From Alphaproteobacteria bacterium (GTDB lineage: Bacteria > Pseudomonadota > Alphaproteobacteria > UBA9219 > RFNS01), in the NCBI GenBank assembly GCA_037200005.1, contig JBBCGY010000001.1:540416-604415 (forward strand): a DNA stretch of 64,000 bases. The letters run 5' to 3'. Numbering within the stretch: position 1 is the stretch's first letter; every line of letters begins with the position of its first letter. The position numbers and the translations under genes are program-made. Below are positions 38,687-51,015 of the stretch, in pieces. The notes beneath the pieces were generated by a model. It was not told where the DNA came from. It made no database searches and saw nothing but the letters and a program-made list of their open reading frames with translations.

Positions 38687-39346
38687 TTATCGTACCGCCG
38701 GCGGAAGAAGGGGCGTGCCGCCGCTCCGCGCTGGCAATTGGGGCGCATCGCTGCGTCCCGGCAGCCGAGGCGTGCCGTTTCGCGCTGCCAATTGGCGGGC
38801 GGGCGCGGGGCTGACAGCAGACACGACTTCGTAAATCCTATCGTGTTTTTTGATCTGGGGCGCTTGAGTCACCGGCTGATGCTGCGCGGAAGGAGCGGCA
38901 GTCGGGCTCCATAAATGACTGAATTCATCAGCCTCCATGCGGAAAACGCTGTCAACGTTTCTGTTGAAAACAAACGGCCAGAAACCCACCGTCCTTTCCT
39001 CGCTGCATTGAAAAAAGACCTTATCTCCGTTCAATACCGCCTTAACCTGCTGCTGAGCTATCTGGCCCGTTGTCATATCTGCCGCGATCTTGAAGGCGGA
39101 TACACTCGCGTTTTTGTAGAAGCTCGAGTTGATCTCACTGGTTTCGATACACCCGCGTCTTCCTTCATCATCGACGGTTGTATAATCAACTCGATCATTA
39201 TCGAAGGGTCTGTCGATATCGGCAATGCGCAGAGTGCGGGCATAGCATGGCACCCCGGATTGAGCGATCAGTCCGGAAGCGAAGCTTCGCGCCTGGCCTT
39301 CGAGTGGCCAATTGGTGCCGAGCGTAATAACAAAATCCGGTCTCAT
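38687..39346 (-). CDS. Unknown protein, paralogue A of a tandem pair
   Basis: A 219-residue protein of no family known to me. It starts ATG at 39346 after a strong AGGAG site, and has no signal peptide. It shares a core with the next gene upstream: spaced matches such as an N-terminal R-x-F-A block, FKIAADMTTGQ (about 87-97) against FRAAADMTTAR, a KVFFQ strand against TAFFRID, and MEADEFSHLWSP against MDAADFTYLYAP. The C-terminus is rich in Pro, Arg and Gly. A 13-base motif is conserved upstream of both. It is on the minus strand between aroB and paralogue B, facing aroB. Confidence 0.7.
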   Translation of the reverse strand: MRPDFVITLGTNWPLEGQARSFASGLIAQSGVPCYARTLRIADIDRPFDNDRVDYTTVDDEGRRGCIETSEINSSFYKNASVSAFKIAADMTTGQIAQQQVKAVLNGDKVFFQCSEERTVGFWPFVFNRNVDSVFRMEADEFSHLWSPTAAPSAQHQPVTQAPQIKKHDRIYEVVSAVSPAPARQLAARNGTPRLPGRSDAPQLPARSGGTPLLPPAVR

Positions 39347-39425
39347 AAAATCTCTCCTAATAATTATCTCTGTTCATTAACTAGAGGCGACGATATCATT
39401 TTTTCATCCCGCTATCAATGTGGAG

Positions 39426-39438
39426 CAATAGTTTCATG
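39426..39438 (-). promoter_or_regulatory. Motif CATGAAACTATTG upstream of paralogue A
   Basis: The minus-strand 13-mer CATGAAACTATTG lies 80 bases before the start of paralogue A. The same 13-mer lies 63 bases before paralogue B. It may be a shared regulatory site or a remnant of the duplication. Confidence 0.4.
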
Positions 39439-39456
39439 CCTTGGCTGGCGGCCCTA

Positions 39457-40395
39457 TTACCCGCGCGGGGCATGGCTCGGTGCGGCGGGCAGGCCGCGCG
39501 GTTGCGGTGGCTCGGGTAGCAGATCGGGAATTTCAAAGACGGGGTCGGCGTTCGCGGGCCCCAGAAGTTTAGGCGGGGCTAATGTCGTTTCGATGCGCGC
39601 CCGCGCGGTGTCCAATCTGGCCGTGAATGCCTGACGGAAAGAAGCCTCGGCCTTAATGGAGGGGTTGAGATCGGTCAGCAACCCATAGACCTGCCGGGCT
39701 TCCGATCTGACATTGGCGTCGCTATCGGACGTGCCGATGACGAACAGCGCGTCGGCGCGGGCCTGGGTGGCGAGGTCGGGATTGTTAGCCGCATGCGCGC
39801 TGAATTCCAGCAACGACGCGTAGCGGACGTCCGCTTCCGGATTATTTCTCGCGTCGGTTAGCAGGGCTTCGACGCGCTGGTACGGTGCGAGCGCGGGCGT
39901 CAGGCTTTGGCCTTCGGCGGGAGCATACAGATAAGTGAAATCCGCGGCGTCCATTTGGTGGTAGCTCGGACGGATTTCCGTGCGATGCCCCAGCCATAAA
40001 AAGCCGCTTCTCACTTTCTTTTGATGGTCGATCCGAAAGAAAGCCGTGTCTTTGTAACATGCCGCCGTTACGGATGGGAATTCGGCGCGCGCTGTCGTCA
40101 TATCGGCAGCTGCGCGAAATCCCAGTTCGTCATATCCCGTCAATCGACGAAAATAATCACGGCTATCGGCATCTGGGCTGGCAGCGACGACGCAAGTCGT
40201 TACGCCATTTTCATTCACGGTCGTAATTTTCGTATGGATATTGTTATAGCCAGAACTTTCCATCCTCCTGATATTAAACGTCAAAGGATGACACTCGACG
40301 CCATGAGAATTAATCATGTCGCGTGCGAATTCCTGGTCGGCGCGAGAAAGGGGTGTAAGAATGCCGCCGGTATCGCCGTGGAATTTAATTGTCAT
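39457..40395 (-). CDS. Unknown protein, paralogue B, with helical repeat tail
   Basis: A 312-residue protein related to paralogue A over its first 170 residues, including FRAAADMTTAR (about 92-102) and MDAADFTYLYAP (about 150-161). After that it has a helical region with Ala-rich repeats (VEALLTDARNNPEADVRYA, FVIGTSDSDANVRSEA) that look HEAT-like, and a Pro-rich end. No signal peptide or membrane helix. The GC content is lower than in the neighbours at the 5' end. No function can be assigned. Confidence 0.7.
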   Translation of the reverse strand: MTIKFHGDTGGILTPLSRADQEFARDMINSHGVECHPLTFNIRRMESSGYNNIHTKITTVNENGVTTCVVAASPDADSRDYFRRLTGYDELGFRAAADMTTARAEFPSVTAACYKDTAFFRIDHQKKVRSGFLWLGHRTEIRPSYHQMDAADFTYLYAPAEGQSLTPALAPYQRVEALLTDARNNPEADVRYASLLEFSAHAANNPDLATQARADALFVIGTSDSDANVRSEARQVYGLLTDLNPSIKAEASFRQAFTARLDTARARIETTLAPPKLLGPANADPVFEIPDLLPEPPQPRGLPAAPSHAPRG

Positions 40396-40457
40396 AACCG
40401 CATCTTTGAAAAGTTATTCCGCAATATACAATTTTTTCCTTCTCTTTCCCATTGCAA

Positions 40458-40470
40458 CAATAGTTTCATG
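40458..40470 (-). promoter_or_regulatory. Motif CATGAAACTATTG upstream of paralogue B
   Basis: The same 13-mer as before paralogue A, 63 bases from the start of B. A TTAACCAT half-site (40480-40473, minus strand) adjoins it. The 155-base gap to ilvA holds nothing else that I can support. Confidence 0.4.
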
Positions 40471-40550
40471 GCATGGTTAACGCGCCTCTGGCCTTCGGCG
40501 GGATGGCGCTTTATAGTGCCGCCTCGCTTCAATCATCAATCAATCCGGCC

Positions 40551-42093: not shown

Positions 42094-42122
42094 TTGACTT
42101 GGATTGCGCGTCTCCATATATT
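42094..42122 (+). promoter_or_regulatory. Sigma-70 promoter of the PadR operon
   Basis: TTGACT (42094-42099), exactly 17 bases, and TATATT (42117-42122). This is the best promoter-like sequence in the window. Its -10 end overlaps the palindrome that begins at 42121. Confidence 0.65.
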
Positions 42123-42144
42123 CTATTTTGTCGAGGAAATAGAA
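42121..42144. promoter_or_regulatory. Perfect inverted repeat, candidate PadR operator
   Basis: TTCTATTT (42121-42128), 8 bases, AAATAGAA (42137-42144): a perfect 8-bp inverted repeat with centre-to-centre symmetry over 24 bases. It starts inside the -10 element and ends 12 bases before the padR start, so a bound dimer would block the promoter. PadR proteins typically repress their own operon at such sites. Confidence 0.6.
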
Positions 42145-42155
42145 AGCGGGTGCTC

Positions 42156-42500
42156 ATGGGCTATGATTCCATCGGTGAACTTGAAATGATGATTATGCTG
42201 GCGGTATTGCGTCTCGGTACGAACGCTTACGGCATAACCATCCGCGATGAGCTTGCTAAGCGTGGTGGACGCAGTCGCTCATTCGGCACGATATATACAA
42301 CTCTTGACCGTCTTTCTGAGAAGGGTTTCGTGACCTCTCGCTTAGGCGATCCCACTGCCGAGCGTGGTGGGCGAGCCAAAAAGTTTTTTGAACTCACTAC
42401 AAAGGGACGTATCACACTCGAAGCAACAGTCAATTCTAGGCGCTCCCTAGAGAACGGTCTGGGCTTCAAAAACCCCGCTCTTCATGGAGCCGCACAATGA
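42156..42500 (+). CDS. PadR-family transcriptional regulator
   Basis: A 114-residue winged-helix repressor. The PadR core is seen in the N-terminal helix GELEMMIMLAVLRLG, AYGITIRDELAKR, then the recognition helix and wing FGTIYTTLDRLSEKGFVTSRLG and KKFFELTTKGR. PadR proteins sense small molecules or stress and usually control an adjacent membrane or transporter gene. The start ATG at 42156 could instead be the GTG at 42150. It overlaps the next gene as ATGA. Confidence 0.88.
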   Translation: MGYDSIGELEMMIMLAVLRLGTNAYGITIRDELAKRGGRSRSFGTIYTTLDRLSEKGFVTSRLGDPTAERGGRAKKFFELTTKGRITLEATVNSRRSLENGLGFKNPALHGAAQ

Positions 42501-43024
42501 ATAACAAACATAAGGGAATGCACCTTATTAGTGTTGAGCTTCAGAAGCTATCTTTAGTTCTTGAAGGAAGTGAAGCTTTAGTTAAACAACTCAAAGAAGA
42601 TGTAACTGCATGGAGGCCTGATGCAGGGCGAGGACCTACGCTTATATTGCGGTGGAAATTATTGAAAACAGCGGCCATAGTTAGCGGACAAAAATCATAC
42701 ATCAAGGTACGTCTATCACAAATAAAAAATAGGGTTCACCATTATGAAAGAAAAGAGCTTGATTACAGATCAAGCCACTTGCCACCAGTAGGTATACAAA
42801 AAATACTTTCCATTTTAGTGGAAGCCCAATACAGAGACGGCCTCTTGGGGGATTTAGATGAATCTTTCCATAGAACAGCCATTCGATTTGGCGGAGAGTT
42901 TGCCAGGAAGCAATACTGCATCGATGCAGTTTTGTCACTTCCTCCGCTCATGGGAAGTCGGATTGCAAAGCTGTTCAGCCTGCTTGCCCTAATGGATTTC
43001 CTGCGAAGGAAATTAGGTTTCTAA
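42497..43024 (+). CDS. PadR-operon partner protein, unknown
   Basis: A 175-residue protein coupled to padR by an ATGA overlap. The first half is coiled-coil-like (VELQKLSLVLEGSEALVKQ). The second half, LLGDLDESFHRTAIRFGGEFARKQYCIDAVLS, resembles in pattern the GDL(D/E)E-F-x-RR-x-G-x-x-x-A-R-x-x-Y segment found before ABC-permease domains and in PadR-linked membrane proteins; this is from memory. No transmembrane helix is strong. GC content is clearly lower than its surroundings, suggesting transfer. Confidence 0.7.
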   Translation: MNNKHKGMHLISVELQKLSLVLEGSEALVKQLKEDVTAWRPDAGRGPTLILRWKLLKTAAIVSGQKSYIKVRLSQIKNRVHHYERKELDYRSSHLPPVGIQKILSILVEAQYRDGLLGDLDESFHRTAIRFGGEFARKQYCIDAVLSLPPLMGSRIAKLFSLLALMDFLRRKLGF

Positions 43025-49093: not shown

Positions 49094-50074
49094 ATGAACC
49101 ATCTACTCGCCGCCCTGGTTGCTTTTCTGTGCCTTGCTTCGCCGCAGGCCATGGCGAAGACCAAATTCGCCGTGCCGCCGACCATCGCGTTTGATGCGCC
49201 GTCGCTTTATCCCGAAGGCGTCGCCTATAACGCCGACACTAAAGAATTCCTGGTCGGCTCGCTTCATGACGGCAATATCGGCTCGGTCAGTCTGGACGGC
49301 AAATACCGCCTCTGGGCGAAAGATGCGAGGCTGGTCTCGACCTTCGGCATGAAGATCGACAAGCCGCGCAACCGGCTGCTGGTTTGCGTCGCCGATCTCG
49401 GCGTCGGCACGAAAACGATCCCGGCAACGCGGCAGAAACTCGCCGCCGTCGTCAGCTTCGACCTCGACACCGGCAGGGTTCTGGCTTGGTATAATCTCGG
49501 CAGCCTTCCTCCCGGCGATCATTTCGCCAACGATCTCGCGGTCGATGACAGCGGCAATATCTTCGTGACCGATTCCCTTGCGTCGCTCATTTACGAAATC
49601 GACGCGAGCGGGCGCGCTTTTATCGCCTTCACCGATCCGCAATTTGTGCCGAACCGGGGCAAGGACGCTCCCGGTCTCGGCCTGAACGGCATCGCCGCGC
49701 ATCCCGACGGTTATCTTCTGGTCGTGAAAATGGACAGCGGCACGCTGTTCAAGGTCGATCTGAAAACCCACGCCATCAGCCAGGTCGCCTTGCCGAAGCC
49801 GCTTCCCGGCGGCGACGGGCTGTTACTCGAGGGCGGCGACGATCTGCTCGTCGTTCAGAATGAAGCAGGCTACGTCGTGAAGCTGCATAGCGCCGATGAT
49901 TGGAAGTCGGCTAAAATAACCGGGACGACCAAAGTGCCGCTGGTTTTCCCGACCACCATGACGATGGCCGAAGGCAAAGCGTATGTCCTGGAAGCCAGGC
50001 TGCCAGAGCTTTTCGATCCCAAGGCGGCGAAATCGTCGGCGTTCGCGATTCATGCCGTCAATTTAAAGCCATGA
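49094..50074 (+). CDS. Secreted SMP-30/gluconolactonase-like beta-propeller
   Basis: A 326-residue exported protein with a signal peptide (MNHLLAALVAFLCLASPQAMA, cleavage probably after residue 21) and a six-bladed beta-propeller of the SMP-30/strictosidine synthase-like type: LYPEGVAYNADTKEFLVGSL, then FANDLAVDDSGNIFVTDSL and LGLNGIAAHPDGYLLVV. The family hydrolyses lactones or acts as a metal-binding enzyme; the substrate is unknown. GGGAG nine bases upstream fixes the ATG at 49094. Confidence 0.8.
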   Translation: MNHLLAALVAFLCLASPQAMAKTKFAVPPTIAFDAPSLYPEGVAYNADTKEFLVGSLHDGNIGSVSLDGKYRLWAKDARLVSTFGMKIDKPRNRLLVCVADLGVGTKTIPATRQKLAAVVSFDLDTGRVLAWYNLGSLPPGDHFANDLAVDDSGNIFVTDSLASLIYEIDASGRAFIAFTDPQFVPNRGKDAPGLGLNGIAAHPDGYLLVVKMDSGTLFKVDLKTHAISQVALPKPLPGGDGLLLEGGDDLLVVQNEAGYVVKLHSADDWKSAKITGTTKVPLVFPTTMTMAEGKAYVLEARLPELFDPKAAKSSAFAIHAVNLKP

Positions 50075-50124
50075 AACTATTTTAACCAACGGCAAACGCC
50101 CAGAAACACTATATACATGACTCT

Positions 50125-51015
50125 ATGGATGGAGTCATAAACACCACGCCGCAGAATTATAAAATCGATTTCGCGCCGCACATGCAGCCGGACGAAAAGG
50201 ACAGAGACATGATCTCTTCCTGGCCGGTTATTCAAGAGCATGTCGCCAGGCGCGATCATGCGGGATTTAAGACCTCGCGGTTGCAAGTCAATGGCGCATG
50301 GTTCGTGGGCGCGGGGGAAAAAAGAAAGCTTTTGGGCGCGCAGGCTCGAGTTTTTTATAAAACCCCGGACGGCGCCGATTCATCCTATCACGTCAATTTC
50401 ATGCCCGATGCCGCAGCCTTGCTGCTTGTATTCCGCGTCGGGGCCGCCGCATTCGCCAAGCGCGACCAGAAAGTCCCTCTCCGCAATCATCATGCGATGC
50501 TCGTGCGCCAGCCGCGCTGGGGCGTGGGCGATCCGGATACGCTCGAGATTCCAGCGGGGATTATCGAGCAAGACGGCATTACGCCCCGCTTTTCCATCAT
50601 GGATCGGGCGGTTCTCGCCGCGTTGCGCGAATTCATGGAAGAGACCGGCGCGCGCGGAAAGGAATTGTTTTCGATCAATTCCGGCACGATACAATCGCTC
50701 GGCGGCCCCGTTTCCTGCGCCGTCAATTTGACCGAGGCCCAGCATCAATTCAGCGCGACAATCGATGTGACCGCGCGGCAGTTTCGCAAAATCCAAGAAG
50801 CCATGCAGGACGCTACGGCGGGGCTTGCCAGCGAGCAGGAAAGCACCACGGTGACGATCATGCCGCTCAAACGGGCCTTCGAGGAAACGCTGAGCGGGAA
50901 ATCGCCATTCTCCCAGATAGCCATCGCCCGCTATATGAAGCGGGAAGGATTGCTCGGTTTCGACCGTTCACGCGTCCGGCGTAATGAGCCTGGATCTGGG
51001 CCTTCTCCGGGATGA
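50125..51015 (+). CDS. Nudix hydrolase with long insertion
   Basis: A 296-residue protein with a Nudix fold in its middle: TLEIPAGIIEQD (139-150), then LREFMEETGA (167-176), the core of the Nudix box. Between PAGIIE and the REx2EE part there are about 15 extra residues, more than in most ADP-ribose or nucleoside diphosphate hydrolases. A basic N-terminal domain (about 1-90) precedes it. Its substrate is unknown. The stop codon lies in a TCCGGGATGA repeat end. Confidence 0.78.
   Translation: MDGVINTTPQNYKIDFAPHMQPDEKDRDMISSWPVIQEHVARRDHAGFKTSRLQVNGAWFVGAGEKRKLLGAQARVFYKTPDGADSSYHVNFMPDAAALLLVFRVGAAAFAKRDQKVPLRNHHAMLVRQPRWGVGDPDTLEIPAGIIEQDGITPRFSIMDRAVLAALREFMEETGARGKELFSINSGTIQSLGGPVSCAVNLTEAQHQFSATIDVTARQFRKIQEAMQDATAGLASEQESTTVTIMPLKRAFEETLSGKSPFSQIAIARYMKREGLLGFDRSRVRRNEPGSGPSPG

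Follow-up and report, generated by a model that had tools for sequence, protein, structure and literature searches.

P1 and P2, two tandem genes of an uncultured alphaproteobacterium, are likely each to be transcribed from a promoter of their own that belongs to a genome-wide class, one on which an activator would drive about 35 co-expressed genes. The 13-mer upstream of both genes, CATGAAACTATTG, is a variant of the degenerate element NTGAAASTAWTN, which occurs in promoters throughout the genome. We established by computation the paralogy of the two proteins, the excess of the motif, its fixed spacing to the −10 and −35 boxes and its absence, in this promoter context, from the sampled sister genera.

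P1 and P2 share an N-terminal domain and differ in their tails

We analysed a window of 64,000 nucleotides, to which all plain coordinates below refer. Both open reading frames described in a preceding sequence-only reading are present on the minus strand, encoding 219 aa (P1) and 312 aa (P2):

38687–39346, minus strand: P1, a 219-aa orphan paralogue with an N-domain (residues ~1–150) and a Pro-rich C-terminal tail
39457–40395, minus strand: P2, a 312-aa orphan with an N-domain (residues ~1–162), a HEAT-like segment (~170–247) and a Pro-rich C-terminus

The genes are flanked by aroB and ilvA, both on the plus strand, and oriented against both; the sequence AGGAGAG lies 6–7 nt 5′ of the P1 ATG. 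G+C content is 51% in the two N-domains, compared with 63–66% in the flanking aroK, aroB, ilvA, ilvD and xerD genes. Since ilvD directly adjoins ilvA on one strand in a genome of the same family (G003), the ilv region has been rearranged in the present genome. Between ilvA and ilvD (42099–43024, plus strand), a PadR-type regulator precedes a 175-aa orphan whose gene is AT-rich (42% G+C).

P1 and P2 are old tandem duplicates. Two-sequence BLASTP gave an E value of 5e-12 with 25% identity across 179 aa, and the pair also matched in a genome-scale search (E 2e-8). The Smith–Waterman score of 112, against a shuffled mean of 27.6 (sd 4.7; z about 18), supports the duplication that had been proposed. 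Homology is confined to the N-terminal ~150 residues, which are 25–28% identical; the spaced blocks seen there by the sequence-only reading are real, and their AADMTT core is invariant in the alignment. Codon mismatches climb from 0.45 at position 1 through 0.55 at position 2 to 0.69 at position 3 (152 aligned codons), the pattern of a conserved protein, and at third codon positions identity within the N-domain is down to 31%, close to saturation. The C-terminal tails are dissimilar to each other, and Pro-rich stretches terminate both proteins. The shared N-domain presumably does one job in combination with different C-terminal modules, and both proteins are probably soluble and cytoplasmic (or exported). 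Within the P1 C-terminus, an imperfect repeat with a spacing of 54 bp (38720–38800; GCCGCTCCGCGCTGGCAATTGG and GCCGTTTCGCGCTGCCAATTGG) codes for the QL.AR.GTP.LP repeats of the protein.

The helical repeat tail ascribed to P2 was located at residues ~170–247. Residues ~176–247 can be aligned (E 2e-7) to a HEAT-like part of the 461-aa protein P0003, which is also encoded in this genome. P0003 itself has a HEAT_2 match below threshold (19.3 bits versus a cutoff of 27.7), and the P2 tail is similar to recognised HEAT-like proteins. P2 thus resembles HEAT proteins (Pfam HEAT_2, PF13646) through this segment, but differs from them in that P2 itself has no Pfam match and its N-domain no known relative. 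Neither P1 nor P2 matched Pfam even at E 10, or reached the gathering score for HEAT repeats (PF13646/PF02985). A profile of the P2 tail also retrieved other repeat proteins in the genome. Several HEAT-like proteins of 300–640 aa are encoded at G000:C1:31.4 kb (P0003), C2:145.6 kb, C2:184 kb and C1:1577.5 kb; the 13-mer is absent upstream of the other HEAT-like genes (P0003 and those encoding 494, 641 and 301 aa).

The earlier impression that P1 and P2 belong to no known family stands for the protein libraries and genome collections searched. We found no relatives in Pfam, NCBIfam, PHROGs or PADLOC; none in PDB sequences, phages, plasmids, IMG/VR or GTDB contigs; none among 96 relatives or in all 33 genomes of the order; and none beyond chance in 385 genomes of the class and 398 of the phylum. 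The N-domain matched nothing in the public profile and sequence libraries or genome sets searched, and HMM and profile searches with it yielded neither a known family nor a further paralogue beyond chance. Weak genome matches to the single proteins or to the N-domain profile (E 0.003–0.1) were rejected as chance: they were short, contained stops or lay in other frames. Same-family contigs around aroB carry no P1/P2 homologue. By AroB, the nearest named relative is an uncultured Alphaproteobacteria MAG (JAGOHT010000155.1, 66%). Structure prediction with AlphaFold2 on two-sequence alignments did give models, but with pLDDT of 36 and 42 these were too poor for a fold search.

Conserved DNA upstream of P1 and P2

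The shared 13-mer, described as lying ~80 and ~63 bases upstream of the P1 and P2 starts, was confirmed at these distances. Together with the putative promoter boxes, the upstream features are:

39394–39457, minus strand: ~64-bp conserved block upstream of P1, homologous to the P2 block at 40426–40490
39426–39438, minus strand: 13-mer CATGAAACTATTG upstream of P1, ~80 bases from the start
39413–39418, minus strand: putative −35 box upstream of P1, TTGATA
39390–39395, minus strand: putative P1 −10 box, TATCGT, 17 bp after the −35 box and 30 nt after the 13-mer
40426–40490, minus strand: ~64-bp conserved block upstream of P2, alignable with the P1 block
40458–40470, minus strand: 13-mer CATGAAACTATTG upstream of P2, ~63 bases from the start; putative activator site
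40423–40428, minus strand: putative P2 −10 box, TATATT, 29 nt after the 13-mer

The P2 −35 box is poor (TGGGAA). Exact copies of the 13-mer occur twice in the 2.36-Mb genome, only upstream of P1 and P2, and sharing of at least 13 identical bases arose in 2 of 3,000 dinucleotide-shuffled pairs of the upstream regions. The score of the ~64-bp block was reached by none of 2,000 shuffles, and a 65-position profile of the block recovered only the P1 and P2 copies from the genome.

We considered whether the 13-mer is merely left over from the tandem duplication and plays no part in regulation, as might be suspected of two paralogous genes whose similarity reaches ~64 bp upstream. However, the upstream block is ~66% identical, whereas third codon positions of the N-domain have fallen to 31%, which indicates that the upstream DNA is constrained. 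Unrelated genes throughout the genome are also preceded by degenerate copies at a fixed distance from a −10 box, as described below. This explanation is already contradicted, and we regard it as very improbable.

We detected no RNA structure in the P1 and P2 leaders (z 0.3–0.5), and an Rfam search returned tRNA only. A sigma-54 promoter (TGGCAC-N5-TTGC) was rejected on inspection, its spacing in P1 and P2 not fitting.

The element recurs at a fixed distance from −10 and −35 boxes

Whether the 13-mer is common elsewhere, a point raised by the sequence-only reading, depends on its form: the exact sequence is confined to its two sites, whereas the degenerate element, with up to two mismatches, has 64 sites in the genome, compared with 9 for a reversed control. 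By a simple codon-model gene call, 37–41 of the 64 are intergenic. In an unselected sample, 291 upstream regions contained 21 forward sites (up to three mismatches) versus 5.2 for permuted patterns, and 0 of 1,000 permuted patterns reached 21.

At 11 of 41 intergenic sites, a TANNNT sequence starts 29 nt (five sites) or 30 nt (six sites) after the motif; each remaining offset from 10 to 57 has 0–2 (mean 0.5). Among genic sites, TANNNT at 29–30 nt was found in 1 of 23. The Poisson P for the peak is about 1e-8, or about 5e-7 corrected for offsets, and applies to the same 64 sites in which the spacing had been spotted by eye before counting. For this reason, we retested the spacing on further samples of the same genome, using the core pattern [N]TGAAA[CG]TA[AT]T[N]. 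A 424-kb sample, window included, held 22 cores, of which 10 had a −10 box at 29–30 nt, five of these being absent from the 64-site set; a second sample of 378 kb held nine cores, three with a −10 box at 30 nt, one of them new. Only six composite sites were thus new relative to the 64-site set. Outside the window, composite promoters number 11 in 738 kb, extrapolating to about 35 per genome, a count drawn from the readable sequence of the two samples; two stretches of the genome and parts of the second sample read as N. About half of the near matches, those that are genic or without a −10 box, are probably chance.

Similarity to TTGACA, which was not a selection feature, peaked exactly 17 bp before the −10 box in 18 promoters (mean of 2.67 matches, versus 0.8–1.9 at nearly all other spacings), and six of the 18 had at least four matches there. 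The promoters agree with the layout of activator-dependent sigma-70 promoters, in which −35 and −10 boxes lie 16–18 bp apart with a conserved upstream element at a fixed distance. ORFs start 27–55 nt past the −10 box in ten listed cases, some of them with a low coding score.

These spacings bear on a second explanation, in which the 13-mer opens a small leader ORF (ATG AAA CTA TTG, encoding MKLL) and ATG-AAA starts account for the excess of sites. Both copies do open a short ORF, of 25 codons before P2, where the TGA overlaps the P2 ATG, and of 13 codons before P1. Across the genome, however, most sites open ORFs of widely varying, mostly short length, and on inspection the second shared block lies in different frames in P1 and P2. 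Nor does a start codon explain a −10 box at 29–30 nt with a −35 box at 17 bp. The varied ORF lengths and fixed −10 spacing led us to reject a leader peptide, which we hold to be the least probable of the explanations considered.

The element could also be an intrinsic polymerase contact, resembling an UP element, or part of an alternative sigma promoter, with no dedicated activator and no true regulon. The position from −42 to −54 overlaps the UP-element region, and a gene for a sigma-70-family protein has a near match upstream (see below). Yet the 13-mer does not form an A-tract, the −35 and −10 boxes, 17 bp apart, are weak but otherwise ordinary for sigma-70, and the core is strongly sequence-specific, with information of about 2 bits at most positions. 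We consider this unlikely, and favour an activator-dependent sigma-70 promoter.

A third copy of the element lies within the window, 42 nt before an ORF at 50125–51015 (plus strand):

50070–50082, plus strand: third copy, CATGAAACTATTT, with one mismatch; TATACA 29 nt later

The 296-aa protein encoded by this ORF has a Nudix-box-like stretch, AALREFMEETGA, and no Pfam match.

In 7 of 17 composite promoters, GTTAA lies no more than 30 bp upstream, at irregular spacing, compared with a background of 3.2%, and is possibly a second regulatory element. GTTAA(CC) is seen upstream of the element at, for example, 40471–40485. These occurrences were viewed against the CtrA regulon, whose sites are of the type TTAA-N7-TTAA.

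We found no composite promoter in the sampled sequence of three genomes from other genera in this family, namely 316 kb for G002, ~240 kb without N for G003 and ~35 kb for G001. At the density seen in the present genome, about nine would be expected in these ~0.59 Mb (P about 1.5e-4).

Genes downstream of the element are mostly orphans

Eight of ten scanned products downstream of motif sites had no Pfam match above the curated cutoff, the exceptions being a sigma-70-family protein and a D-Ala-D-Ala carboxypeptidase. In calling the set orphan, we relied on Pfam for 10 proteins and on simple codon-model ORF calls. The sigma-70-family gene, in L141 (G000:C2:185230), matched regions 1.2, 2 and 3 and is cut by the locus end; upstream of it, the near match CGTGAAACTATTT is followed 28 nt later by CATAAT. 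When 16 members of the set were compared, we found no mutual similarity apart from that of P1 and P2.

At least five prolines fall within the last 30 residues in 8 of the 16 members, compared with 33 of 363 called proteins (Fisher P 6e-5). As orphan proteins in general may share such C-termini, this trait of the set is only suggestive. A second tandem pair of orphans (278 and 410 aa, with Pro-rich C-termini) lies at G000:C1:136523–138685 (L151:16523–18685, minus strand). Each gene of this pair is preceded by [GA]ATGAAACTATTGTTG with a −10 box at 30 nt, and the pair has no sequence similarity to P1 or P2.

A proposed regulon of lineage-specific genes

In the proposed mechanism, the 12–13-bp element NTGAAASTAWTN would be followed after 6–8 bp by a weak −35 box, itself 17 bp from the −10 box (TANNNT). 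The element would then span about −42 to −54 relative to the transcription start, a position suited to contact between an activator and RNA polymerase. One putative transcription factor would bind the element and recruit the sigma-70 polymerase, so that about 35 genes at scattered positions would be expressed together, most of them, like P1 and P2, orphans specific to the lineage. We infer that a protein activator binds the element and that the genes respond together.

Because the 13-mer occupies the place of an activator site in weak sigma-70 promoters, P1 and P2 appear to be under joint regulation, along with a dispersed, mostly orphan set. The sequence-only reading had suggested co-regulation from a duplication with a retained upstream motif. 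That suggestion is strengthened, since genome-wide recurrence of the spacing to the −10 and −35 boxes marks the 13-mer as a working component of promoters rather than a duplication relic; what did not hold is that the motif was retained by the pair only, as degenerate copies lie elsewhere.

Activator-dependent sigma-70 promoters have the same weak −35 box, 17-bp spacer, −10 box and specific element just upstream of the −35 box, but NTGAAASTAWTN matched no motif that we could identify. Among the titles listed in a literature text search for ATGAAACTATT, none was of a promoter paper. A comparable arrangement is found in Legionella, where effector-encoding genes are under global and local regulators (PMC12239595). 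These sets likewise comprise scattered, individually promoted and mostly unrelated genes of unassigned function with a shared upstream element. The motif and lineage differ, however, and the present set is linked to no particular secretion system, host or regulator. It is a tentative and rather doubtful extension that a genus-specific transcription factor controls P1, P2 and the other orphans of the ~35-gene set, which would act together in a lifestyle-specific process such as export into a partner or prey cell.

Our findings point to a previously undescribed set of about 35 genes that would be switched on together. Orphan genes usually stay unexplained because nothing links them. Here, a shared, position-fixed promoter element would link about 35 otherwise unrelated orphan genes in a single uncultured alphaproteobacterium as a co-regulated set open to testing, which may offer a route to orphan function via the regulator and the inducing conditions.
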